A program made the position numbers and the translations under genes. 64,000 nt of DNA. Source: Thermoanaerobaculia bacterium. GTDB taxonomy: Bacteria; Acidobacteriota; Thermoanaerobaculia; Multivoradales; Multivoraceae. Below the pieces are notes generated by a model. The model was not told the origin of the DNA and searched no databases. It saw nothing but the letters and a program-made list of their open reading frames with translations. Below, one piece after another: positions 48 through 12,326 of the stretch (its first letter is position 1; every line of letters begins with the position of its first letter). The stretch lies in the NCBI GenBank assembly GCA_022826745.1, contig JAJDUI010000037.1:186001-250000 (forward strand), given 5' to 3'.

Positions 48-1373
48 ATGCCAGTGCGCTGGAAGTTGCTAGGCCCTGAGATCGGGTATGAGGACGGCTT
101 CGAGGATACCGACCTCTTTGGCTACGCAGACCTTGGAACAAGGCTCGCGGACGTGATCGCGGGCCTTGAGGACGAGCCCGTTATCGTTCTGGACGGAGAC
201 TGGGGTAGCGGCAAGACGACGTTCGCCCTCCAGTGGGCCGGTCTCCTAAGGCGCCGAGGCAACGCGGTTCTCTACTTCGATGCGTTCGCCTGCGATCACC
301 AGGAGGATGCGCTGCTGGCGCTTGCCGAGGAGGTCTACTGCTTTGCGGAGAAGGAAGGCGTATCGCCGGACCACCTCAATGACTTCGCCGACAGGGTGTC
401 AAAGGCAGTCAAAGCGAGTTCCGTTGCTGTGCTGGGCTCGCTCGGCGGGAAGTTCCTTGGCATCGACGACAAAGTGGCTGGAGAACTCGCAGCGATCTTG
501 GCGGAAGAGCCGCGTCTAAAGGCCTGGATCAGAGATTCCGCGGCGCGCAAGCAGGCCGTGCAGGCGTTTCGCGGGGAGCTTCAGCGCATTGCATGTGCAA
601 CGGTGGAGAAGGCCCGCGAGCGCGTCGAGTCGGGAGAGGGCGAGCCCGGGGCGAACGGCGAGGGAACGGAAGCTCCAGGAAGACTCGTTATCGTTGTTGA
701 CGAGTTGGACCGTTGCAAGCCAGCTTTCGCCCTGAGTGTGCTGGAGCGCATCAAGCACGTAGTAGGCGTTCCCGGAGTCGTCTTCGTGCTCGTGGCTAGC
801 TTGAAGGAACTTGGGAACTCCGTTCGGTCTGCGTACGGCGAGGTGGACGCCGAACGGTACCTGGAGAAGTTCTTCGACCTCGTGGTGCGGCTTCCAGATG
901 CCTGGAGAGCAGGTAGCAGCGTGCCGAAGGCGCGCGTCTATGCCGCCTATCTGCAAGAGCAGGCGTTCTCGAAGTTCCCGGCGTCGAGTCTCGAGCGGCA
1001 CATGCGGGCGCTTGTACGACTCGCCGAGAAGGAGCAGATGTCACTGCGGACTATGGAGCATGTTGTTCGGAATGTCGCCGTCCTGGCTCTTGGTGGGCAC
1101 GGTGGGTGGAACAGCTGGGGAACGTTGTCTGTACCGGTGCTTGTTAGCGCCATCCGTGTCGTGTATCCGGGGATCTTCTCCAGGTTGAGGGCCGGAAGGC
1201 CTGAGGACCTAGAAGACGGAGACTGGGACAAAGTCATGGAGTTGGCGAAGGAAGTCATCTTTGGTGCGAACCAGGACGTCGAGCTAGCGGACGAGATACT
1301 GGACAAATCGAAGTTGAGGCCGTACCGCGGGTTGCCCGATGCAGCGAGGAAGCTCGATGCCTTTGAAGTGTGA
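48..1373 (+). CDS. KAP-family P-loop NTPase-like protein
   Basis: Walker A GDWGSGKTTFALQWA, Walker B-like RLVIVVDELDRCKP typical of KAP NTPases; 441 aa ORF with GGAGG just upstream (start may be the GTG at 54). Confidence 0.75.
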   Translation: MPVRWKLLGPEIGYEDGFEDTDLFGYADLGTRLADVIAGLEDEPVIVLDGDWGSGKTTFALQWAGLLRRRGNAVLYFDAFACDHQEDALLALAEEVYCFAEKEGVSPDHLNDFADRVSKAVKASSVAVLGSLGGKFLGIDDKVAGELAAILAEEPRLKAWIRDSAARKQAVQAFRGELQRIACATVEKARERVESGEGEPGANGEGTEAPGRLVIVVDELDRCKPAFALSVLERIKHVVGVPGVVFVLVASLKELGNSVRSAYGEVDAERYLEKFFDLVVRLPDAWRAGSSVPKARVYAAYLQEQAFSKFPASSLERHMRALVRLAEKEQMSLRTMEHVVRNVAVLALGGHGGWNSWGTLSVPVLVSAIRVVYPGIFSRLRAGRPEDLEDGDWDKVMELAKEVIFGANQDVELADEILDKSKLRPYRGLPDAARKLDAFEV

Positions 1374-1502: not shown

Positions 1503-1895
1503 TTGTCTTTCTGGCAAGCGTTGATTCTCCTGCTCACGGCAATCGGTGGCGTTATAGCCATACGCTTCACAACGACCCTGGATCTCAACAAGTTCCTGGA
1601 GTACCGCCAAGAGCGACAAGTCGCGAAGATGCGTGCCGCCTGCCCTCACACCATACTCGTTGAAGTGCCCATCAATGGACACAGGGAATACCGGTGGAAG
1701 ACTCTCGCGGTCGACGTTGACGCGGGAGATGGAGTGGCGGTCAAGAAGATCACGGTATGCAGTCGCTGTGGCACTCAACTCCTCGGGGGACTCGCTCAGG
1801 CCAACGATGCGCGGCTCTACTTTGAGCGAGACCCCGATGCGTGGCTGAAGCAGGAGGCGTACTTTCTCAAAGTGGCGAGAAAGCTGATGCACTAG
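1503..1895 (+). CDS. small membrane-anchored protein with CxxC motif, unknown function
   Basis: 130 aa ORF, TTG start, N-terminal hydrophobic helix (FWQALILLLTAIGGVIAI), CSRCG motif; co-directional with the KAP gene. Confidence 0.5.
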   Translation: MSFWQALILLLTAIGGVIAIRFTTTLDLNKFLEYRQERQVAKMRAACPHTILVEVPINGHREYRWKTLAVDVDAGDGVAVKKITVCSRCGTQLLGGLAQANDARLYFERDPDAWLKQEAYFLKVARKLMH

Positions 1896-1956: not shown

Positions 1957-2619
1957 CTAGTGTCTCTGGGCTTGGACCGCGCGGGACTCGGCTTGTCTCG
2001 GATTCCGCATAGAACGGAGAATCCGGGCAAGGGACGGGCAGCGCCTGGCCCTCTCTATGCCGAGCAGCCCGATTACCCATTCTCCATGGTGTGGCGGAAC
2101 GTGCATGCGAGCGTCATGGACGGCACGGAAGACCGTGTCCGAGAGTTGGGGCTCCGTCAGTGCTTCCGTTAGCCGTGAGTCACGCAGAAGATCCACTGTG
2201 CCGCTCGTTGGGAGATTCGGGAACCTCTCGGTGCAGATCCTGAGTGCCTTGCGGTCGTCCAGGAGGGCGAGCCCCCCTACTTCGAGCGCCTTGGCGATTG
2301 TGGCGGCCTCCCCGTCGCCCAAGGTTTCGCTGGCTGCGCCGGAGACCAGACCAATGAAGTCGGCTTCGCTCGACTCTCCGATTCGGACGGCTTCGAGGAA
2401 GCCGCCGGCAATCAACTCCGCCAGGAGAGCGGAGTCCCGATGCTCTCCGCCGCGGCCGGAAGAAAGTTCGCCTAGAACTTGCTCGGTGACGAGGACCTGG
2501 TTCGATAGCGCCCCCAGAATCGCCTTCGCGCGACGCGTTGCGTTCAGATTGATGACAACGCTGGAGTCGGCGACGACCGGACCTGTGAACCTAGCCAGAG
2601 GGAGAACAGGATCCGGCAT
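1957..2619 (-). CDS. PIN-domain nuclease-like protein
   Basis: VVADSSVVINL near N-terminus, VLGEL, LGDGEAATIAKA, ALLDDRKA acidic residues in PIN order; overlaps the upstream gene by ~29 bp. Confidence 0.75.
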   Translation of the reverse strand: MPDPVLPLARFTGPVVADSSVVINLNATRRAKAILGALSNQVLVTEQVLGELSSGRGGEHRDSALLAELIAGGFLEAVRIGESSEADFIGLVSGAASETLGDGEAATIAKALEVGGLALLDDRKALRICTERFPNLPTSGTVDLLRDSRLTEALTEPQLSDTVFRAVHDARMHVPPHHGEWVIGLLGIERARRCPSLARILRSMRNPRQAESRAVQAQRH

Positions 2620-3760
2620 CGACTCCTATGGCCTCATCGTCCAGCAACTGGCGGAGCTCCGGACGTTCCAGACGGAGCAGGTTGGCCAACTGGCCTTCGC
2701 TCAGCAGTTCCTTCCTGTAAACCTCGCTCGCGAGCGCGGCCAGCCGAAGCGTCGTAGGCCCACGCCCTTCGGCTGCTTGCGCTTCGGACTGGTCGAGGTC
2801 GCCCAGGGCCTCTTGGACGTGCGCCTGGGTTATACGCCCGGTCGTCTGGAAGAAGTCCCACGCGCCTCTGTCGACGAGTCGCAAGTCCTCCAAACGGCGA
2901 ACAAGTGCTTCGCGAGATACACCGAATGCGTGACTCAGCAGGATGACGCTGCGTCGCGTCAAGATGCCCGATTCAGCGGTCAGCGCCCGGAATCTCTCAC
3001 GGACGGCTCTTTCGGGCGTCAAGAACGCGCGAGCGAAGGCGTCTGCGTAGCGCTCTTCGCGAGACGTTGCCTGTTGGCGACGGTAGTGGACGACCGGAAC
3101 ATCTCGTGCCGATACGAAGTGAGCCAGCTCGTGAATCGCAGTATGGGTCCGCCTCGAAGGAGGATGTTTGGCGTTCAACAGCATGCACGCGCCGACGCCT
3201 GCCTCGTAAGCGAAGAGGCCGGAGATCCGGGATTCGATGGGTCGGATATAGACACGTACGCCGAGGTCGAGTTCAAGCAGGCTGATCACGTCGCGGACGG
3301 GCGCCTGACCCAGGCCCAGCCATTGCCGGAGTTCCTGAACATGGTTCTCGGCCTGAAGTCGAACGTCGCCAGGAAGTATGGCTCGTCTGGGCGGGTAGTT
3401 CTCGGTCCTCTGGATGCCGAGGAGGTTCTCCAACTCGACCTCGGCGCGCACCAGGTCGCCAAGCAAGTGGGCCGCGGCGTCGGCTTCGCCGGTGTCCGAG
3501 CCCTGCAGCTTGCGAAACCGAGGCGCCAGGTGGACGTGAACCGCCTCGGCACGCAGTAGTTGGTTCGCCGTCGTTCCGTACGTCGCGGCAAGGCGTTGGA
3601 TCTCGGCCGGCCGCCAGACTCTTCGGCCCTGCTCGATGGCCACGAGAGTCGTGCGGGCCACGCCAATGGCACCGGCGGCTGCGGCCTGCGTTATGCCTTT
3701 GGCTTCGCGGGCGCGGCGAAGGCGCCGTCCGATCTCGGCGCTATCCGATTGGCTAGGCAT
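2591..3760 (-). CDS. XRE-family HTH plus ImmA/IrrE-type metallopeptidase
   Basis: HTH: IGRRLRRAREAKGITQAAAAGAIGVARTTLVAIEQGRR; protease motif HTAIHELAHFVSARD (HExxH). Start chosen at internal Met MPSQSD. Confidence 0.85.
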   Translation of the reverse strand: MPSQSDSAEIGRRLRRAREAKGITQAAAAGAIGVARTTLVAIEQGRRVWRPAEIQRLAATYGTTANQLLRAEAVHVHLAPRFRKLQGSDTGEADAAAHLLGDLVRAEVELENLLGIQRTENYPPRRAILPGDVRLQAENHVQELRQWLGLGQAPVRDVISLLELDLGVRVYIRPIESRISGLFAYEAGVGACMLLNAKHPPSRRTHTAIHELAHFVSARDVPVVHYRRQQATSREERYADAFARAFLTPERAVRERFRALTAESGILTRRSVILLSHAFGVSREALVRRLEDLRLVDRGAWDFFQTTGRITQAHVQEALGDLDQSEAQAAEGRGPTTLRLAALASEVYRKELLSEGQLANLLRLERPELRQLLDDEAIGVDAGSCSPSG

Positions 3761-5123
3761 GAGCGTCGCGGACTTGGGCAACCCACTTCGTGACGAACGA
3801 GTCGGCGCCGAGATCCTGGAGAAAGTCTGCCCATTCTTGTGCATGCCGCATCAGCATCCTGTGGAGTCGGTCTCTGGCTTCTTCTGGCGCTAGGCCAAGA
3901 GATTGGCGCAGATGCCAGACATGTAGGTCGAGTTTCGGTGATTCGCGGGGCAGCCTGGCTAGTTGAGCCAGATCCTCAAGGTGAAGCGTGCCGGCCAACG
4001 CGTACTGATGATGGGAGCCACGTGGCGCTCGCTTCTTGAACGCTGGCGCCGCACCGTCCTCATAGTTGTGCGCGCGCAGGTCTTCCCAGACGTAGATCTC
4101 TCGATCTTCTGTCGCCCCAGCAGCGTGCACGCTCATCCGGCGAAGCATGCAGGCGGCGCAGACGCCGCATTGGCGTTTCTTTCGGGACACCGAAACGTGC
4201 CTCTGGTCCTGCCAGCAGGATCGAGTGTCGCGCCAGGTGTCGCCGATCACTTGCGCTCCCAGTAGGTCGCGGAGCGTTTCGCCTTTCGTGTTCCATAGCC
4301 GAGGTTGGACGTAGCGGATCTCGTAGCCGAGTAGAGCAGCTAAGAACTCCTCCATCAGGCGTAGGAAACTCGGGTGGGTTCTCTGGTCTGGTGGCTGCTG
4401 TCCGACCGGGACGAGTGAGGGGCCTAAGGCACCTTGGCCGCTCTCGGGCATGATGACCGTGTCCGTGCTGGCCAGATAGGCGGCTGTGCCGCCAAGGAGG
4501 GCGAACCGAAAACCCCGGGATCGAGCGCTGCTCTCGGTCCGGCGGCCCGGCGCGTACCGGACCTCGTAGGGGACGGCCACGAACGGCGTCTCGCTGGCGG
4601 TCCGAGAGATGTTCCTTGTGCCTAGGCGTACCCGGATGGGCTCGATGCCAGACCCGTCCGCCTCCAGTCTCGCGACCATGTACGAGTCTAAGCCCTCACT
4701 GTACGGAACAACTGCCTTGGCGTTTTGGGAGAAACCCAGGATGCCCTGGGGGCACGCCTCTTCGTGTCGTCGCCCGGTGAACCGGATGTTCCACTGGTCG
4801 CCAGTTAGGAGACTCAAGGCCCGGATCAGCGGCGATGACACGTCCTCGGAGCGCCAACGGTCCGGATCGTGGACGGGTATCCGTAGATCGAACCGTCTCA
4901 CCCAACTCACGGGTGGCCGAGATCTGAGACCGTCGCAGAACTCAGTCGCCGCTGCAACGACGAAAGCGTCGAATACGCGCTGATCCCAGCATCCGAAGCA
5001 GTAGCTTCTCAGTACGTCGGGCTTGAAGATGAGGTGCGTCCCAATCACGCACGCGGGGCGACGGGCCGGTGCTCGGGCATCAGCTTCCTGCACCTCGACG
5101 CAGAGTCCGGCGTCGCGACTCAT
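3753..5123 (-). CDS. QueC-like (7-cyano-7-deazaguanine synthase-like) protein with ~140 aa N-terminal extension
   Basis: PP-loop VVPYSEGLDSYMVARL (SxGxDS) and QueC-type zinc ligands SCWQD...CGVCAACMLRR; 456 aa, about twice housekeeping QueC length. Confidence 0.8.
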   Translation of the reverse strand: MSRDAGLCVEVQEADARAPARRPACVIGTHLIFKPDVLRSYCFGCWDQRVFDAFVVAAATEFCDGLRSRPPVSWVRRFDLRIPVHDPDRWRSEDVSSPLIRALSLLTGDQWNIRFTGRRHEEACPQGILGFSQNAKAVVPYSEGLDSYMVARLEADGSGIEPIRVRLGTRNISRTASETPFVAVPYEVRYAPGRRTESSARSRGFRFALLGGTAAYLASTDTVIMPESGQGALGPSLVPVGQQPPDQRTHPSFLRLMEEFLAALLGYEIRYVQPRLWNTKGETLRDLLGAQVIGDTWRDTRSCWQDQRHVSVSRKKRQCGVCAACMLRRMSVHAAGATEDREIYVWEDLRAHNYEDGAAPAFKKRAPRGSHHQYALAGTLHLEDLAQLARLPRESPKLDLHVWHLRQSLGLAPEEARDRLHRMLMRHAQEWADFLQDLGADSFVTKWVAQVRDAHA

Positions 5124-5701
5124 CCCGATGCTCCCAGCACGGGCACGCCATCCTCCAAGCTGGCCTTGGGGCTAGGCTTGAGCGCGACCTCGTCGCCGCG
5201 CCCGATCACTTTCGCGGCGAGTTTCTTCGAGTCAAGAGCGGCGAGCGCGGAATCTACGCGCTGCAGCGCGGCGGGAGTCCCAGACCACGAACTGCGGAGA
5301 TAATGTTCGACTATTTGCCGCCGGCGATTGTCAGCTTCGTAGTCTACTAGCCGCCGCAGTGCCTCGCATGCTGCCCTCTCCCCATGCTGACCGTCCAAGG
5401 TTGCCAGGATGGCAAAGTCGATGAATGGTCCGCTTAGTCGCCCCTCTTGGTGCGTCCTCTTCAACTGCTCAAGGAGCGCTAGGCTGGCGGCGTTGCCGTT
5501 GAGGAGCGTCTGTCGGTTGGCCAAGCACTGCTCCACATCCCGGAGAACCGGTCGGGGTAGATCCTTCCTGAGCGCCGCCAGTAAGGCCCTTTCTCCGCGC
5601 CGCGAGACCTCGTCAATCGGGAGCAGCTTGGTCTCGGCGCGTTTGGCGAAGCCCTTCCAAAGGCGTTCCATCGGTAGACTTCTGTGAGGTCCGTCGCTCA
5701 T
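5120..5701 (-). CDS. conserved-looking small protein of unknown function, first gene of QueC-like operon
   Basis: ORF overlaps the QueC-like gene by 4 bp; likely start MSDGPHRSLPMERLWKGFAKRAE. Confidence 0.6.
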   Translation of the reverse strand: MSDGPHRSLPMERLWKGFAKRAETKLLPIDEVSRRGERALLAALRKDLPRPVLRDVEQCLANRQTLLNGNAASLALLEQLKRTHQEGRLSGPFIDFAILATLDGQHGERAACEALRRLVDYEADNRRRQIVEHYLRSSWSGTPAALQRVDSALAALDSKKLAAKVIGRGDEVALKPSPKASLEDGVPVLGASG

Positions 5702-5837
5702 CGACTTTCCAGTGTCAGATACGATGACGAGTTTTCCTGACAAAGTCAAGTCGCCGTGGCGCCGGCTTTGAGGCGTGCATATGGGCGCTCAAGGGGACGA
5801 GCAGGGCGTCCTCGGTCGGTAGTAGCATGGCGGGTGG

Positions 5838-6035: not shown

Positions 6036-9000
6036 GTGCGCCGCTTGCACAAGGTGCCGGCCTTGAGCCAGGACCCTTCGATTGGCGCCGACCCGGTGGT
6101 GCCAGGCGCTCGGTTGATCGAGGCCGTGTTCCCGCTCCGGCAGGCGTCTCTCGACTCGGTCCACGAGAAGTACGTGCGACACGGGCACATCTCGACGCTG
6201 CACATCTGGCCGGCGAGGCGGCCACTGGCTGCTTGTCGGGCGGTGTTGCTGGCCACGCTGTTGCCGGACCCGGGTGACGCTGAACGGCGGCGACGCATGA
6301 TGGCACGAATCGGGGGCGAAGTGCTCCCGAGGCAGACCCGGGCCGGGAAGCTCAGGGAGGAGACGGCGGGTGGTGTGCTTCACTGGGGCCGGGAGAGTGA
6401 CCTGGAGGTCGAGAAACTGCGTGAGGAGATTCGCGAGGCGTTCGGCGGCCGGGTGCCGAGGGTTCTCGACCCGTTCGCGGGCGGCGGAGCGATCCCGCTG
6501 GAGGCGATGCGGCTGGGATGCGAGGTCACCGCGTCGGACTTGAACCCGGTCGCCTGGTTTGTCCTGCGCTGCACGCTGCACTACCCGCGGTTGGTGGCGG
6601 GGCAGGAGTTGCCGCTGCCGGCCTTCGCCGTGCGTGATCGTGATTTCGTCGGGGCGTGCCTCAAGGCGCAGGGCGTGACGAGGAAGCCCGCGTTGCGCGA
6701 GCAACTGCGACGGTTGGGCCACAGCGACGGCGAGGCCGTGCAGGTCCGGTCCGCGTTGCTCGACAAAGAACCGCGTGCCTCGAGAAGCCGCGAATCTGCG
6801 GGTCCAACGCTCCAGGCGGGGTTCCCCTGGCACCTTCGGGCATGGGGACGCCGGGTTCTGGCCGAGGCTCGACGTGAGCTTGCGAAGCGGTACCCGACCT
6901 ACGCGGATTTCGAGCCGGTGCGGCGCAAAGGGCGGGGCAGACGGGATGCCGAGATTCGGTTCCCCGAGCACCGTTTCAGAGCTCGCCCGTCGCGGTTGCT
7001 CGAACCGGACGCTGCCGGGAACGTCTCGGTCGCCGATTTGAACGCCGAGTTCGACGCCGCCTACCTGGAGAACGAAGCGAATCCGCGCTGGGTCGCGAAG
7101 CCGACGGTCGCCTACTTGTGGGCGCGGACGGTTCGCTGCGCGAACTGCCGGGCCGAGATCCCTCTGCTCAAGACGCGCTGGCTGTGCAAGAAGCCGGGCA
7201 AGCGAGTGCTGCTGTCGATGACGCCACGGCACGACGGTTCGGGAGTGGACTTCGACATCAAGCACGACGTGCGGTCGGGGGAGGGCAACGCGGCTCAGCG
7301 ACGCGAGCACGACCGCCGGATGGGTGCCGGGACGATGAGCCGCAGCGGCGCCGCTTGCCCTAGTTGCGGCGGAATCTCGACGATGGCCGACTTGCGCAAC
7401 GAGGGCCGGACGGGGAGATTCGGTGAGCGGATGACGGCGGTGGTCGTGGATGGCCAGCAAGGCAAGGAGTACCGGCTCCCGACCGAGGTCGAGTTGGCGG
7501 CCGCGTTGGTCGACGAGAAGGAACTACGAGCTTTGTTCGCGGAGATTCCGTTCGGTCTGCCCGAAGAACCGACGCCGGATGAAAGGGCCTTGGGGATGCG
7601 GATTCCCCGCTATGGATTCGACTCGTGGCGAAAGCTGTTCACAAACCGGCAGTTGCTCGCGCTGGGGGTGATCGTCCAGACAATCCGTGGTTCTGCCGGA
7701 GATACGACCGCCTATCCCGCAACGTGGCGGGAAGGATTGAGCGCGAGCCTCTCGTGCATCCTGAGCAAGCTCGCCGACTACAGCAGTAGTGTTTGTTCTT
7801 GGGACAACTCGCGTGAGACCTTGAGGCAGACGTTCGCTCGATTCGCGCTTCCTATGGTGTGGGACAACTGCGAAGCCAATCCTCTGTCGGGTGGTTCGGG
7901 CAGTTTCGAAGGGATGACAGATTGGGTGGCGCGCTATGTCGACCACGCAACAGCAGCGCTCTCAGACGCTCCCGCTGTGGACGTGCAGGCCGAGAGCGCC
8001 ATTCGGCTCCAAGACTGCGGCGTCGATGTTATCTGCACAGATCCCCCCTACTACGACGCCATCCCGTACTCAGATCTCATGGACTTCTTCTACGTCTGGC
8101 TGCGACGCGCGCTCCACGGCCTGTCGCCCGAGTTCGACGCCGCTTTCGCCGCGCCACTCGGTCCCAAGTGGAACCAGGAGGCCTCCGGCGGTAAGGGTGA
8201 TGGGGAGTTGATCGACGATGCGAGCCGCTTCGGAGGGGACCGCGACGCGTCGAAGCGGACCTACGAGGACGGCATGGCACGCGCCTTTCGCCGCTTCCAT
8301 GACGCACTCCGTGACGACGGTCGTCTCGTGATTGTGTTTGCCAACAAACAGCCCGATGCTTGGGAGACTCTGGTCTCGGCGCTGATTCGTGCCGGTTTCG
8401 TTGCCTGCGGTTCGTGGCCGATTCAGACTGAGATGAAGAACCGACAGCGGTCGCTGTCGTCGGCGGCGCTCTCCTCCTCGATCTGGCTAGTCTGCCGCCG
8501 CCGGCCTGTCGACGCCCGGCCCGGCTGGGACGCCGCTGTCTTGGCTGAGATGCGCTCCAACATCACGGAGAGCCTGCGGCGGTTCTGGGATGCTGGCATC
8601 CGCGGACCGGACTTCGTTTGGGCGGCTACCGGCCCCGCACTTGAGGCCTTTAGCGGTCATCCGGTCGTCAAGAAAGCGGATTCGCCACGGGAGACGCTGT
8701 CCGTGGCTGAGTTCCTACGGCAAGTGCGACGCATCGTCGTCACCTTTGTCGTGAACCGGTTGCTCGAGGCCGAGCCTGGTGCCCCGACGGAACTCGACGA
8801 CCTGACGACCTACTACTTGTTGCACCGCAACGACTTCGGGCTGGGCGCTGGCCCGGCGGGGGTGTGCATCCTCTACGCGCTGTCGTGCAACCTCTCTGAC
8901 GCCGACCTTGCCGGCGGCCTGGATCTGCTGGCGCGGGGCGCTTCAGCGTCTGCAAGCGATGCCTCGGACGGAGATGGCGACGAGGAAGGGTCCGCCCCCG

Positions 9001-9332
9001 CTACTTCAGGGTCGGAAGCCCGGCTCAAGCCGTGGGACAGGCGTCGAAGCCGCGGCCTGGGCGAGCCCTCCGCCAACGGCGAGCCGCCGGCACTCATCGA
9101 TTGCGTCCACAGACTCATGCAACTCTGGAAGACCGGCGAGCAAGGTCGCGTTGACCGCTATCTGGCCGACCGCGGCCTGTGGCGACACGAACTGTTCGCG
9201 CGGGTCGTCCAGGCGGTCATCGAACTCGCCGCCGAAGGCTCCGAGGAGCGATCCACTCTGGAGTCGATCCAGAACCATCTGCAGGGCCAGAGCCCAGCCG
9301 TTGCGTGGCCCAGGCAGCGGACGATGTTGTAG
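6036..9332 (+). CDS. DUF1156-type DNA (adenine) methyltransferase-like protein
   Basis: [44 protein letters not shown] (DUF1156-like N-terminus), [44 protein letters not shown], internal CxxC pairs; GTG start. Confidence 0.85.
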   Translation: [1098 protein letters not shown]

Positions 9333-9798: not shown

Positions 9799-10638
9799 TC
9801 ACTCGGCGGGCTTGTCCCGGCTGGACAGTTGATGGTTCACGATCTGCCGCGCCAGGACGTCCGGTTGACGCGGGAACAGCCGTGCAGCGGCGCGTAGTTC
9901 CACGACCTGTTCGATCATCTTCGAGCTTGGTTGAGGACGGTGCGGCTCCAGGAACCTCCTGGCTGCGTCGAAGTCCGTAGCCTCCGATGGCTGGTCGGCA
10001 TCGATGATGCCGTCGATGAGTTGGACCGCCGTGACAAGGCGCAGGGTCCGATAGAAGAACGCGTCAGCGGCGTCGGAACCGCTTGGTTGGCGCGACAGTT
10101 GGGCGCGCTCGTAGCGGGCGATGGTGTCGAGGATTCGGTGGATCGCGGCCAGTGCCGCATCCACGCGCTCGAGGCTCGCTTTCTCCAGGGGTTTGGCTTG
10201 CCGATCGAGTGAGTGTTCCAGGTCTCGGTGGCCGATCCGGCGATTTCTCCAATCCCGAGCGAACGCGGCAGCGTCGACAGCGGCCTGGACATGTGCGCTC
10301 AGCTCACGGTGCTTCTCCCGCTGATCGGTGAAGAAGGCCGGGATCTGCTGGAATGTCAGGTTCTTGTGGCCGGCAGTTTGAACCGGATCGGTCAGCCGCG
10401 CCACCTGCAGCAACAGGTTCTCCCAGAGAACGTCCTGAAGCAATGCCATCAGGGGGCCGGCGACGCCATTGAGCACGGCGAGGCGCTCGGCATCGGAGAA
10501 CAGGTCGCGAAACTCCTGTAGCGTCCACTCGGCATGGGCCCACTCGTTCTTCAGGAGATGGAGCACGCGCTGAGAATCCGGGGTTGATGCTCGGTCCGGA
10601 TAGTGCCTTTCCGGGTAGTCGGTCTGGACTGCAGGCAC
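9799..10638 (-). CDS. HEPN/AbiU2-like protein
   Basis: helical protein with RDWRNRRIGHRD (RNx4H) motif; GTG start at 10638 preceded by GGAGG. Confidence 0.55.
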   Translation of the reverse strand: MPAVQTDYPERHYPDRASTPDSQRVLHLLKNEWAHAEWTLQEFRDLFSDAERLAVLNGVAGPLMALLQDVLWENLLLQVARLTDPVQTAGHKNLTFQQIPAFFTDQREKHRELSAHVQAAVDAAAFARDWRNRRIGHRDLEHSLDRQAKPLEKASLERVDAALAAIHRILDTIARYERAQLSRQPSGSDAADAFFYRTLRLVTAVQLIDGIIDADQPSEATDFDAARRFLEPHRPQPSSKMIEQVVELRAAARLFPRQPDVLARQIVNHQLSSRDKPAE

Positions 10639-10688
10639 GGTTTCTCGTCCTCCGTTCCTTGAGTGGGTCCGGTACGTCGGGCCGACGA

Positions 10689-12134
10689 TCAGCCGCGGAG
10701 CAACTGTGACTTCAGCACCAGACCGATTGTCACGGCCGCCCTGCCGAAGGCATAGCAGTACGCCGCAGTCGGACCGATGTTGATCTGGCCGCTGCCTTTC
10801 CACGGCCGATCGCCCACCCGCGCCGTCCTGGTCGTGAGCAGTATCCTGGCCTCCGGGTGCCGCTTAGAGAACGCTACAAGTCCCTCGAGCCGGTCTGGCG
10901 CCGTCGCCGATCGGTCCGACCACTTCACTTCGACGCACCAGTTCGGTTGCTGCCGGGCGTCGAGGTGAACCAGATCAACTTCGCCGGCCTTCATACCGTG
11001 CCGCGCCGGCCAGCGGGCGTAGTACAGATCCGAGTTGGAGTGCAGCCACTGTGCGAAGACCGCCGTTTCCGCCATCGCGCCGAACGTAGCGTCGTCCTCA
11101 TCCACTGGTCCGAACAAGGCTGTGCGGAGTGATGGCGTCGTGAGGTGAATCTTGAAGTGTGTTGCGCGCCGGAATCGCTTCGCGTTCTCGTCGACCCGGT
11201 GGATCCTGCGGATCAGAAAGGCGGCTTCCAGGTAGTCCAGGTAGCGTCTGATCGTCGGCTTGCTGACGCCGGACCCCTTGGACAAGGCATCGAGCGACAG
11301 TTCTCCGGCGGTGTTGTAAGCGAGCATCGCGAATAGCCGGTTGAGTTCCTGTACGTCTCGGATCCCGTAGAGGCTGGGAAGATCGCGGAGCAGAACCTTG
11401 TCCACGATGTCGGACCTGATGTAGCGGCCCGGATCCTCTCGCACTGAAGCGGATGTGATCGCCTCGGGATAGCCGCCGAAGTTGACGTAGTCGACGAAGT
11501 GCCCGTTGAGTTCCGCCCAGTCCTCGTCGCGGATCTGGTCGGAGAGCGGCGGGTTCGCGAGGTGGTCGATACCGGAAAGGAAGAGGTACTCCCAGAACGT
11601 GAGCGGCGGTAAGAGGAAGTCGGTGAAGCGGCCGGCACCCGATTCAGCGCTCTTTCGCTTGAGCGCGGCGGCTGCCGAACCGCACGCAACGCACTGGACG
11701 TTGGGGTGCGCGTCGACGAACGCCTTCAGGTGGCGTTCCCAGTCCGGCAGGTACTGGATCTCGTCGAGGAACAGGACTGGAAGGTCGCCGGCACTTCCGC
11801 TGGCCCGGCGGAGCGTCCGTGCAGCGTCCTCGATCGACAAGCCGGTGTAGAGCGGCTGGTCCAGCGAGAGATAGCCGATCTCGGTGGGCTGATACGCCCC
11901 AGTGTGAAGTAGGCGCCTGATGACATGGTGGAGCAGAACGGTCTTGCCGATGCGCCGGGGTCCCATGAGGATCACTGCGCGCCGTACGTCGGTCTTCGTC
12001 ACTAGACTCTGGAACGGTCGGCAGTAGGTCCTCTCGGTAAGCGCCTCGAAGTCACGGCGGATGCGACCGTCCGCCCACCACGGATTATCGGCGCGCATCC
12101 GTTGTAGACGCTGATCGACCGAGATCTCCCGCAT
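10689..12134 (-). CDS. AAA ATPase with DUF4143-type C-terminal region
   Basis: MGPRRIGKTVLLHHVIRRLL Walker A, LFLDEIQYLPDWERHLK Walker B, TDFLLPPLTFWEYLFL, C-terminal EVDLVHLDARQQPNWCVEVKWSD nuclease-like motif. Confidence 0.85.
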   Translation of the reverse strand: MREISVDQRLQRMRADNPWWADGRIRRDFEALTERTYCRPFQSLVTKTDVRRAVILMGPRRIGKTVLLHHVIRRLLHTGAYQPTEIGYLSLDQPLYTGLSIEDAARTLRRASGSAGDLPVLFLDEIQYLPDWERHLKAFVDAHPNVQCVACGSAAAALKRKSAESGAGRFTDFLLPPLTFWEYLFLSGIDHLANPPLSDQIRDEDWAELNGHFVDYVNFGGYPEAITSASVREDPGRYIRSDIVDKVLLRDLPSLYGIRDVQELNRLFAMLAYNTAGELSLDALSKGSGVSKPTIRRYLDYLEAAFLIRRIHRVDENAKRFRRATHFKIHLTTPSLRTALFGPVDEDDATFGAMAETAVFAQWLHSNSDLYYARWPARHGMKAGEVDLVHLDARQQPNWCVEVKWSDRSATAPDRLEGLVAFSKRHPEARILLTTRTARVGDRPWKGSGQINIGPTAAYCYAFGRAAVTIGLVLKSQLLRG

Positions 12135-12326
12135 GGAAGCCAAGATAGCGCCTGCGGCACCGGCCGTCAAGTTAGAGAAAGAGCTCTTTCCTTGTCTCCG
12201 AGGCGTTCGGCAAGTCGTGTCTGTTCAGGGAGTTGGGACCATTCACCTACGGGTGTCGAGACGGATGGCGTCCTCCTCGCCCGGCCGCCGCATGGCCCGT
12301 GTAGCATCCCGGCTTCCCTTGCGGCG

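Follow-up and report, generated by a model that had tools for sequence, protein, structure and literature searches.

The DNA analyzed here (the window, 64,000 nucleotides in all) comes from a Thermoanaerobaculia bacterium and contains four minus-strand open reading frames, each running into the next (overlaps of 4, 8, and 29 bases), as a first-pass annotation of the sequence had described. From the upstream end, they encode a small helical protein (herein QB), a QatC-like protein, an XRE-ImmA fusion, and a PIN-domain protein. The features of the locus are as follows:

5713 to 5749, minus strand: putative promoter/operator, with the palindrome TTGACTTTGTCAG (core 5738 to 5748) over the −35 element and a TGACA half-site at 5713 to 5717
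5120 to 5701, minus strand: QB, helical protein of 193 aa, putative partner or substrate of the QatC-like protein
5657 to 5701, minus strand: N-terminal tail of QB, MSDGPHRSLPMERLW, predicted to enter the QatC-like active site
3753 to 5123, minus strand: QatC-like protein of 456 aa, a PP-loop ATPase of the QueC family that is extended at both termini
4683 to 4700, minus strand: variant PP-loop S-E-G-L-D-S of the QatC-like protein (S142 through S147)
4149 to 4217, minus strand: zinc site of the QatC-like protein, C303, C319, C322, and C325 (SCW...CGVCAACMLRR)
2591 to 3760, minus strand: XRE-ImmA fusion, putative autorepressor and antitoxin, 389 aa (start ATG at 3760)
1957 to 2619, minus strand: PIN-domain nuclease, putative toxin/effector, 220 aa

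The length of QB replaces an earlier figure of 209 aa, since relatives back the ATG at 5701; a TTG at 5749 was rejected as the start because it belongs to the −35/operator sequence and relatives favor the ATG. The open frame of XRE-ImmA runs on to 3844, beyond its ATG. No queD, queE, or queF gene adjoins the operon, in agreement with the first reading.

Both the PP-loop and the four zinc ligands previously reported for the QueC-like protein are present, and its assignment to the QatC family is borne out by its predicted fold. The model matches QatC from the QatB-QatC crystal structure (9y01_B) over 468 columns (E = 7e-15; TM 0.66/0.70), and the match spans the Rossmann QueC core together with both the N- and C-terminal extensions. 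The PADLOC QatC model gives 1.6e-32, and NCBIfam QatC (NF041925) gives E = 3.3e-36 with 125 bits, which is under the curated cut-off of 280 bits. Housekeeping QueC was rejected as an identity (TIGR00364, 18.9 bits vs. a cut-off of 150.3; 456 vs. ∼220 aa; queD/E neighbors absent). The zinc cysteines are invariant in 14 aligned sequences and in all loci listed, and all members of the core clade have the PP-loop S-[DEN]-G-[LM]-D-S, whereas classical QatC has SGGxDS. Homology suggests that the protein has ligase chemistry. At the position of the invariant QatC threonine pair (T278/T280) these proteins carry D-[YQH]-R-[NTSCV]-HP, with a one-residue gap that makes the pairing approximate, and the residues by which QueC and Cap9 recognize 7-carboxy-7-deazaguanine (CDG) are not retained as Y-x-D. 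Four of 16 operon-bearing genomes have no QueC over the cut-off, no PTPS/QueD, and no QueE match.

QB lies directly upstream of the QatC-like gene in every four-gene locus. Its AlphaFold2 model (pLDDT 82.7) has eight helices, a disordered C-terminal tail (residues 169 through 193), and low confidence at residues 1 through 10; searches against Pfam, PHROGs, PADLOC, PDB, and BFVD returned no match. Median identity among QB proteins is only 28%, and residues 1 through 9 form the most conserved nine-residue window of 185 (mean entropy 0.49 vs. 2.21 elsewhere). The consensus start is M-[ST]-D-G-P, in which M1, D3, and G4 are invariant in all 32 N termini read; the starts of the QatC-like, XRE-ImmA, and PIN proteins vary, unlike this tail. 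Known partners also have conserved N termini (MGTS in QatB, MGGS in the CD-NTase; PMC13279940). What had been an unknown small protein can be described more closely, as a likely partner of the QatC-like protein with an invariant N-terminal tail. Residue 2 is S, T, P, R, or H (Arg in locus L051, His in the broken L012 gene; Roseomonas has MRDG) and is not always permissive for Met removal, so that the small molecule may be accepted elsewhere than at the amine of residue 2. Two other identities for QB were rejected: a recognizable QatB (hhalign probability 2.8%; no fold match, though QatB-QatC entries were in the library) and kinship with EruA, a NACHT protein (a single match among 13 members, E = 0.017).

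The downstream half of the operon resembles a toxin-antitoxin pair. XRE-ImmA combines a repressor domain, an M78/IrrE-type metallopeptidase, and a UPF0175-like C-terminal stretch (Pfam HTH_31, 4e-13; Peptidase_M78, 5.9e-15; UPF0175, 3e-4), and aligns over residues 40 through 345 with PADLOC RmrA, the RosmerTA antitoxin (3e-27). The PADLOC capP and capH models also match. In CapH/CapP, an HTH repressor and an ImmA-type protease control an immune operon; here, a single polypeptide holds both, with the putative toxin gene immediately after it. The earlier PIN call proved right though weak: the window protein has no match in Pfam, an ortholog matches Pfam PIN at 5.2e-6 (above the Pfam cut-off), and the PADLOC PDC-S70 models match the window protein at 6.7e-10. 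No PADLOC RmrT model matched this protein adjacent to XRE-ImmA. Catalytic residues of the operon proteins are conserved across loci, including the HExxH of XRE-ImmA and the acidic residues of PIN (V-x-D-[ST]-S, a Glu, L-[DG]-D-G-E-A, and D-[ED]-[RK]-[KR]). XRE-ImmA is probably an autorepressor and antitoxin and the PIN protein probably a toxin/effector; we infer repression, the antitoxin role, and PIN activity by homology.

A conserved operator precedes the operon. The palindrome TTGAC[A/T]TTGTCAG lies ∼48 bp before QB, with the TGACA half-site 31 bases past it, and occupies the same place in 31 of 31 upstream regions examined (25 with TGACATTGTCA at no more than one mismatch and 6 with a shortened TGACATGTCA). 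A variable-gap search of the whole 4.39-Mb genome finds the composite pattern at a single place, and the backwards control gives none. The putative XRE-ImmA target is TTGACATTGTCAG-N-CTGACA. The idea that XRE-ImmA acts as a switch gains support from this operator and from the known RosmerTA and COG2856-PIN pairs.

The operon is conserved rather than local: 31 complete loci, in genomes and plasmids, share the single order QB, QatC-like, XRE-ImmA, PIN, which is beyond chance. Neighborhood conservation had been set beforehand as a refuting test, and the neighbors are kept far beyond this genome; nor are homologs restricted to a queDEF/preQ0 context, as none was found with queDEF. Carriers of complete loci include Alphaproteobacteria, Bacteroidota, and the genus of the window, and many are plasmids; complete plasmid-borne operons occur, for example, in Methylocystis and Labrenzia. 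Reciprocal searches of plasmids gave 25 records with a close QatC homolog and the same 25 with a close XRE-ImmA homolog. Distance matrices of the four proteins correlate with Mantel r = 0.90 to 0.98, and every four-gene QatC falls on one side of a single tree branch (support 93/91). Searches of phage and viral contigs found no QatC-like protein. The tight distances, reciprocal records, and single branch are among the points that speak for the explanation favored below; the lack of resemblance of QB to QatB, residue-2 variation in QB, the altered CDG residues, and the CDG genes missing from those four genomes speak against it.

The proposal of a candidate undescribed defense operon, with an architecture unlike Qat and type IV CBASS, is supported. 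Like qatABCD, the operon has a QatC-family protein with both extensions, a directly upstream, overlapping gene for a small helical protein whose N terminus carries a conserved motif, and a defense neighborhood. It differs in that the annotated four-gene loci are without the QatA KAP ATPase and the QatD TatD nuclease; that QB, not detectably QatB, starts MSDGP or MTDGP (M-x-D-G) rather than MGTS; that the PP-loop is S[DEN]GxDS; that ESGQGALGP and D-Y-R-N-HP stand where Qat has ENG and STRT-THP; and that XRE-ImmA and PIN are added, along with an operator of its own. A KAP ATPase gene at 48 to 1373 was rejected as QatA, being on the opposite strand and convergent, with no homolog beside the operon of genome G214. 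With type IV CBASS and its Cap9/Cap10 deazaguanylation (PMC11996544; PMC13279940) the operon shares a predicted PP-loop ligase acting on a partner N terminus, but Cap9 is minimal and keeps the QueC substrate residues; no CD-NTase, Cap10, or cyclic-nucleotide effector is among the operon genes. RosmerTA, a proven anti-phage toxin-antitoxin family with ImmA antitoxins, likewise has an XRE-ImmA fusion antitoxin/repressor adjoining a toxin gene (a putative one in the present operon); its ImmA nodes pair with PIN-like domains and its RmrT toxins are diverse (PMC10440598), whereas here the pair is part of an operon that also encodes QB and a putative QatC-type ligase, and the putative toxin scores as PDC-S70/PIN. 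COG2856-Xre fusions often adjoin PIN toxins, and UPF0175 is a separate antitoxin family linked to PIN (Makarova 2009, PMC2701414), one that the C-terminal stretch of XRE-ImmA resembles; the COG2856-Xre/PIN pairs correspond to the second half of the operon but are two-gene modules without a ligase. The earlier view had PIN in place of TatD; XRE-ImmA plus PIN fits better as a RosmerTA-like module that has been combined with a QatBC-like pair, rather than as substitutes for QatA and QatD. Our search of the open-license literature found no published account of the QatC-like, XRE-ImmA, and PIN combination.

We favor, at a probability of roughly 45%, a self-regulated anti-phage operon in which the QatC-type ligase acts on QB and the XRE-ImmA antitoxin gates the PIN toxin; families and neighborhoods suggest the anti-phage activity. 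Using ATP, the QatC-like protein would activate a small molecule that is carboxylated and join it to the exposed QB tail, as has been proposed for QatC on QatB and as Cap9 does on its CD-NTase. XRE-ImmA would bind the TGACATTGTCA operator, keeping the operon low and the PIN nuclease in check. Infection would change the modified QB/QatC-like complex and relieve XRE-ImmA through its protease domain, and derepression with PIN attack on RNA would stop phage and host growth. Modification of QB as the signal that gates XRE-ImmA is speculative. The fuller version, in which a non-CDG molecule is attached to the M-[ST]-D-G-P tail and the state of QB releases the PIN toxin via the protease-type antitoxin, we hold to be unlikely as a whole.

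An alternative, judged less probable than the favored reading, is that two mechanistically independent modules travel together, a QatBC-like defense pair and a RosmerTA-like XRE-ImmA/PIN pair, the latter serving as addiction, guard, or shared regulator of the operon. In its favor, stand-alone XRE-ImmA/PIN pairs adjoin other genes, some defense-related (L080, L082, and L083), loci L034 and L036 have only QatB- and QatC-like genes, QatB and QatC alone can defend in Qat (PMC13279940), and congener G184 keeps the operator, XRE-ImmA, and PIN but, through loss, hardly any of QB and QatC. However, among complete loci no core-clade QatC was seen without XRE-ImmA and PIN, on the plasmids searched no close XRE-ImmA homolog was seen without QatC, and distances track tightly, an obligate link that exceeds what an optional addiction module predicts. 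We consider it improbable that the QatC-like protein leaves QB unmodified and acts instead on a free nucleobase or nucleotide, phage or host nucleic acid, or another protein, with QB as a regulatory subunit or scaffold and its tail binding in unmodified form; the changed substrate residues, the host genomes without detectable CDG genes, the lack of relation to QatB by the tests made, and the variable residue 2 would fit this, but the PP-loop and zinc site are kept, the predicted fold matches QatC with both extensions, and conservation in QB peaks at this tail, as in QatB and the CD-NTase. Very unlikely is a four-gene toxin-antitoxin element that stabilizes plasmids or islands without anti-phage function: the operon is common on conjugative plasmids and XRE-ImmA/PIN, which is the part that G184 kept, has toxin-antitoxin form, but the recurrent plasmid neighbors include AbiE, Lit, Shedu, and restriction genes (Eco57I-type and DUF262 genes also occur), each half comes from a family in which some members are proven to act against phage (Qat and RosmerTA), and addiction does not need a ligase.

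The conserved operon brings together a putative QatC-type ligase, a new partner, and an XRE-ImmA/PIN pair. The reaction of QatC, its small molecule, and its route to stopping phage are questions posed by the authors of the QatBC structure (PMC13279940), and the operon offers a natural, independent test case for them: its QatC relative differs in PP-loop and substrate-site motif and is encoded beside a QB that is apparently unrelated to QatB yet bears a conserved N-terminal tail of the same kind. Comparing Qat with this operon could show what a partner must provide for QatC, whether CDG is the nucleobase at all, and how modification leads to cell arrest, for which the toxin-antitoxin output would give a simple growth read-out. 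Because the genes now carry the labels "7-cyano-7-deazaguanine synthase," "XRE regulator," and "hypothetical," defense finders can easily overlook loci of this type.

All four ORFs that the first-pass annotation had placed in one minus-strand operon were confirmed at their positions:

5120-5701, minus strand: QB, a 193-aa helical protein
3753-5123, minus strand: QatC-like, a 456-aa QueC-family PP-loop protein
2591-3760, minus strand: XRE-ImmA, a 389-aa protease/repressor fusion
1957-2619, minus strand: PIN, a 220-aa PIN-domain nuclease

QB and QatC-like overlap by ATGA (5120-5123), QatC-like and XRE-ImmA by 8 bases, and XRE-ImmA and PIN by 29. Profile searches relate the QatC-like protein to QueC (Pfam, 2.5e-6) and QatC (NCBIfam, 3e-36, scoring 125 bits where the cut-off is 280; PADLOC, 1.6e-32), assign HTH and Peptidase_M78 domains and a PADLOC RmrA match (3e-27) to XRE-ImmA, and give PADLOC PDC-S70 as the sole match of the window's PIN copy; they returned nothing noteworthy for QB.

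A GTDB genome scan with the QatC-like protein yielded 12 loci, with the order QB, QatC-like, XRE-ImmA, PIN wherever the contig sufficed; this order also occurs in a genome of the same genus (G214; QatC identity 64%) and one of the same order (G450). Plasmid records added 25 QatC-like matches (36-50% identity), and a separate plasmid search with XRE-ImmA returned the identical 25 (47-58%) before matches dropped to ~32%; all 16 records inspected carry the four genes. Complete loci with this order number 31, including a distant lineage, L033 (QatC 28%), and excluding L004, whose contig stops within XRE-ImmA. Over 25 loci the distance matrices of the four proteins are correlated at 0.90-0.98, a level reached by 0 of 2000 permutations. 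In maximum-likelihood analysis a single branch (93/91; core clade 100/100) sets the 27 four-gene QatCs apart from classical qatABCD and from QatB/C-only loci; L033 is a long branch of less certain placement.

The AlphaFold2 model of the QatC-like protein (pLDDT 84.8) has QatC of the QatB-QatC structure 9y01 as its top Foldseek match (E 7e-15, TM 0.66/0.70), followed by QueC. The catalytic frame is retained, but it is altered in ways specific to the clade: S[DEN]G[LM]DS versus SGGxDS in the PP-loop, ESGQGALGP versus ENG..LN, and D-Y-R-N-HP versus STRT-THP, together with the motif SCW...CG[VIL]CAAC. Gao et al. found T278 and T280 of the STRT-THP loop essential in QatC, where they stand in for the nucleobase-reading Tyr/Asp pair of QueC and Cap9 (PMC13279940). 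Around this place most members have Tyr-x-Asn and the window protein Gln-x-Thr, a one-residue gap leaving the exact pairing uncertain. The small-molecule site therefore probably differs from those of QueC, Cap9, and classical QatC.

Among 16 operon-related genomes searched, including the congener G184 with its partly deleted operon, QueC exceeds the cut-off in 6 and a PTPS/QueD family protein is present in 10. Four (G450, G501, G502, and G510) have no QueC over cut-off, PTPS/QueD, or QueE match; some of the genomes are drafts, and the QueE result, from one query, is weak evidence. 7-Carboxy-7-deazaguanine does not look obligatory for the operon. A QueE-like protein and a PTPS protein are encoded in the window's genus (G000:C19:4309-4947 and C18:52292-52732); QueC above the curated cut-off is absent there, as in the congener whose operon QatC is lost.

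QB is divergent (median identity 28% for 17 proteins thinned at 70%), with M1, D3, G4, P5, and G185 invariant in this set and residues 1-9 the most conserved of 185 windows. All 32 N-termini begin M-x-D-G, x being Ser (n = 20), Thr (n = 9), Pro (L033), Arg (L051), or His (the broken L012 gene); the starts of the other three proteins vary, unlike that of QB. This N-terminus parallels QatB (MGTS) and CD-NTase (MGGS), in both of which the N-terminal glycine is essential (PMC13279940). Given Arg and His at residue 2, the acceptor in QB may be something other than the amine that loss of Met would expose. The Roseomonas QB (L051:5360; GTG start, MRDGIWKGL) is the only intact gene whose residue 2 is expected to block Met removal. 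The AlphaFold2 model of QB is all helical, with low confidence in the first ten residues and a disordered C-terminal tail. Searches of PDB and BFVD gave no matching fold and profile comparison gave no relation to QatB, and QB was rejected as a recognisable QatB. The tail (5120-5160) also contains a conserved [VIL]-[DE]-x-G motif, with the invariant G185, that may serve as a second site for docking or proteolysis.

Directly 5' of QB lies a putative regulatory site:

5713-5749: candidate operator, TTGACTTTGTCAG-N-CTGACA

The palindrome TGACA-(N)-TGTCA occupies this place in all 31 upstream regions, with at most one mismatch to TGACATTGTCA in 25 and as the 10-bp form TGACATGTCA in 6. It contains the -35 hexamer, and in many loci a TGACA half-site follows 30-31 bases on, roughly three turns of the helix. 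Across the window's entire genome the composite pattern has a single occurrence, with none in a backwards control. Autorepression by XRE-ImmA through this site would be the simplest reading. In G184 a deletion (L029:8230-8430) fuses the first QB codons (MSDGPHRSLPLE) to the last ~40 of QatC, with operator, XRE-ImmA, and PIN intact. The operator thus remains linked to XRE-ImmA, a pattern consistent with toxin-antitoxin-like retention. In four further loci (L012, L005, L086, and L090) QB or QatC is interrupted by frameshifts or stop codons and the XRE-ImmA and PIN frames are open; decay seems to begin in the QB/QatC half. Some distant XRE-ImmA/PIN pairs stand alone, one adjoining methyltransferase and helicase genes. 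COG2856-Xre fusions are often paired with PIN toxins, and the antitoxin family UPF0175 (COG2886) is associated with PIN (PMC2701414); the C-terminal end of XRE-ImmA resembles UPF0175 (3e-4, under the Pfam cut-off). RosmerTA systems that use ImmA antitoxins are anti-phage, with PIN-like domains in their network (PMC10440598).

The operon resembles Qat and RosmerTA in its predicted working. On the features tested it is not qatABCD, as QatA, QatB, and QatD are absent and QatC falls below the curated cut-off; its antitoxin side matches the RosmerTA RmrA profile. No description of the four-gene combination was found in the open-licence literature, and papers outside it may contain one. Two other loci, L034 (6649-9221) and L036 (6871-9131), hold only QatB-like (MGHT.., MGSQ..) and QatC-like genes, without QatA or QatD, and are possible minimal QatBC systems. 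In the best-supported mechanism the QatC-like ligase would act on the QB tail and XRE-ImmA would autorepress and restrain PIN, steps that rest on homology; infection would then tip the balance toward PIN activity. We infer the coupling of the two halves from their obligate linkage. An anti-phage role is likely, because AbiE, Lit, Shedu, restriction, and reverse-transcriptase genes neighbor the operon and both parent families are proven anti-phage.

Other genes noted in the window:

48-1373, plus strand: KAP-family NTPase (PADLOC PDC-S20, 1.6e-53; weak QatA), convergent with the operon
1503-1895, plus strand: 130-aa ORF of no known family, after the NTPase and likewise convergent
6036-9332, plus strand: DUF1156 adenine methyltransferase (PADLOC HmaB, 3.5e-113), divergent from the operon
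9799-12170, minus strand: HEPN AbiU2-like protein overlapping an AAA_14/DUF4143 protein, defence-island-type genes

Neither the NTPase nor the 130-aa ORF was found next to the G214 operon. The methyltransferase/operon arrangement is kept there (82% identity), and the two therefore form a stable island in both genomes.
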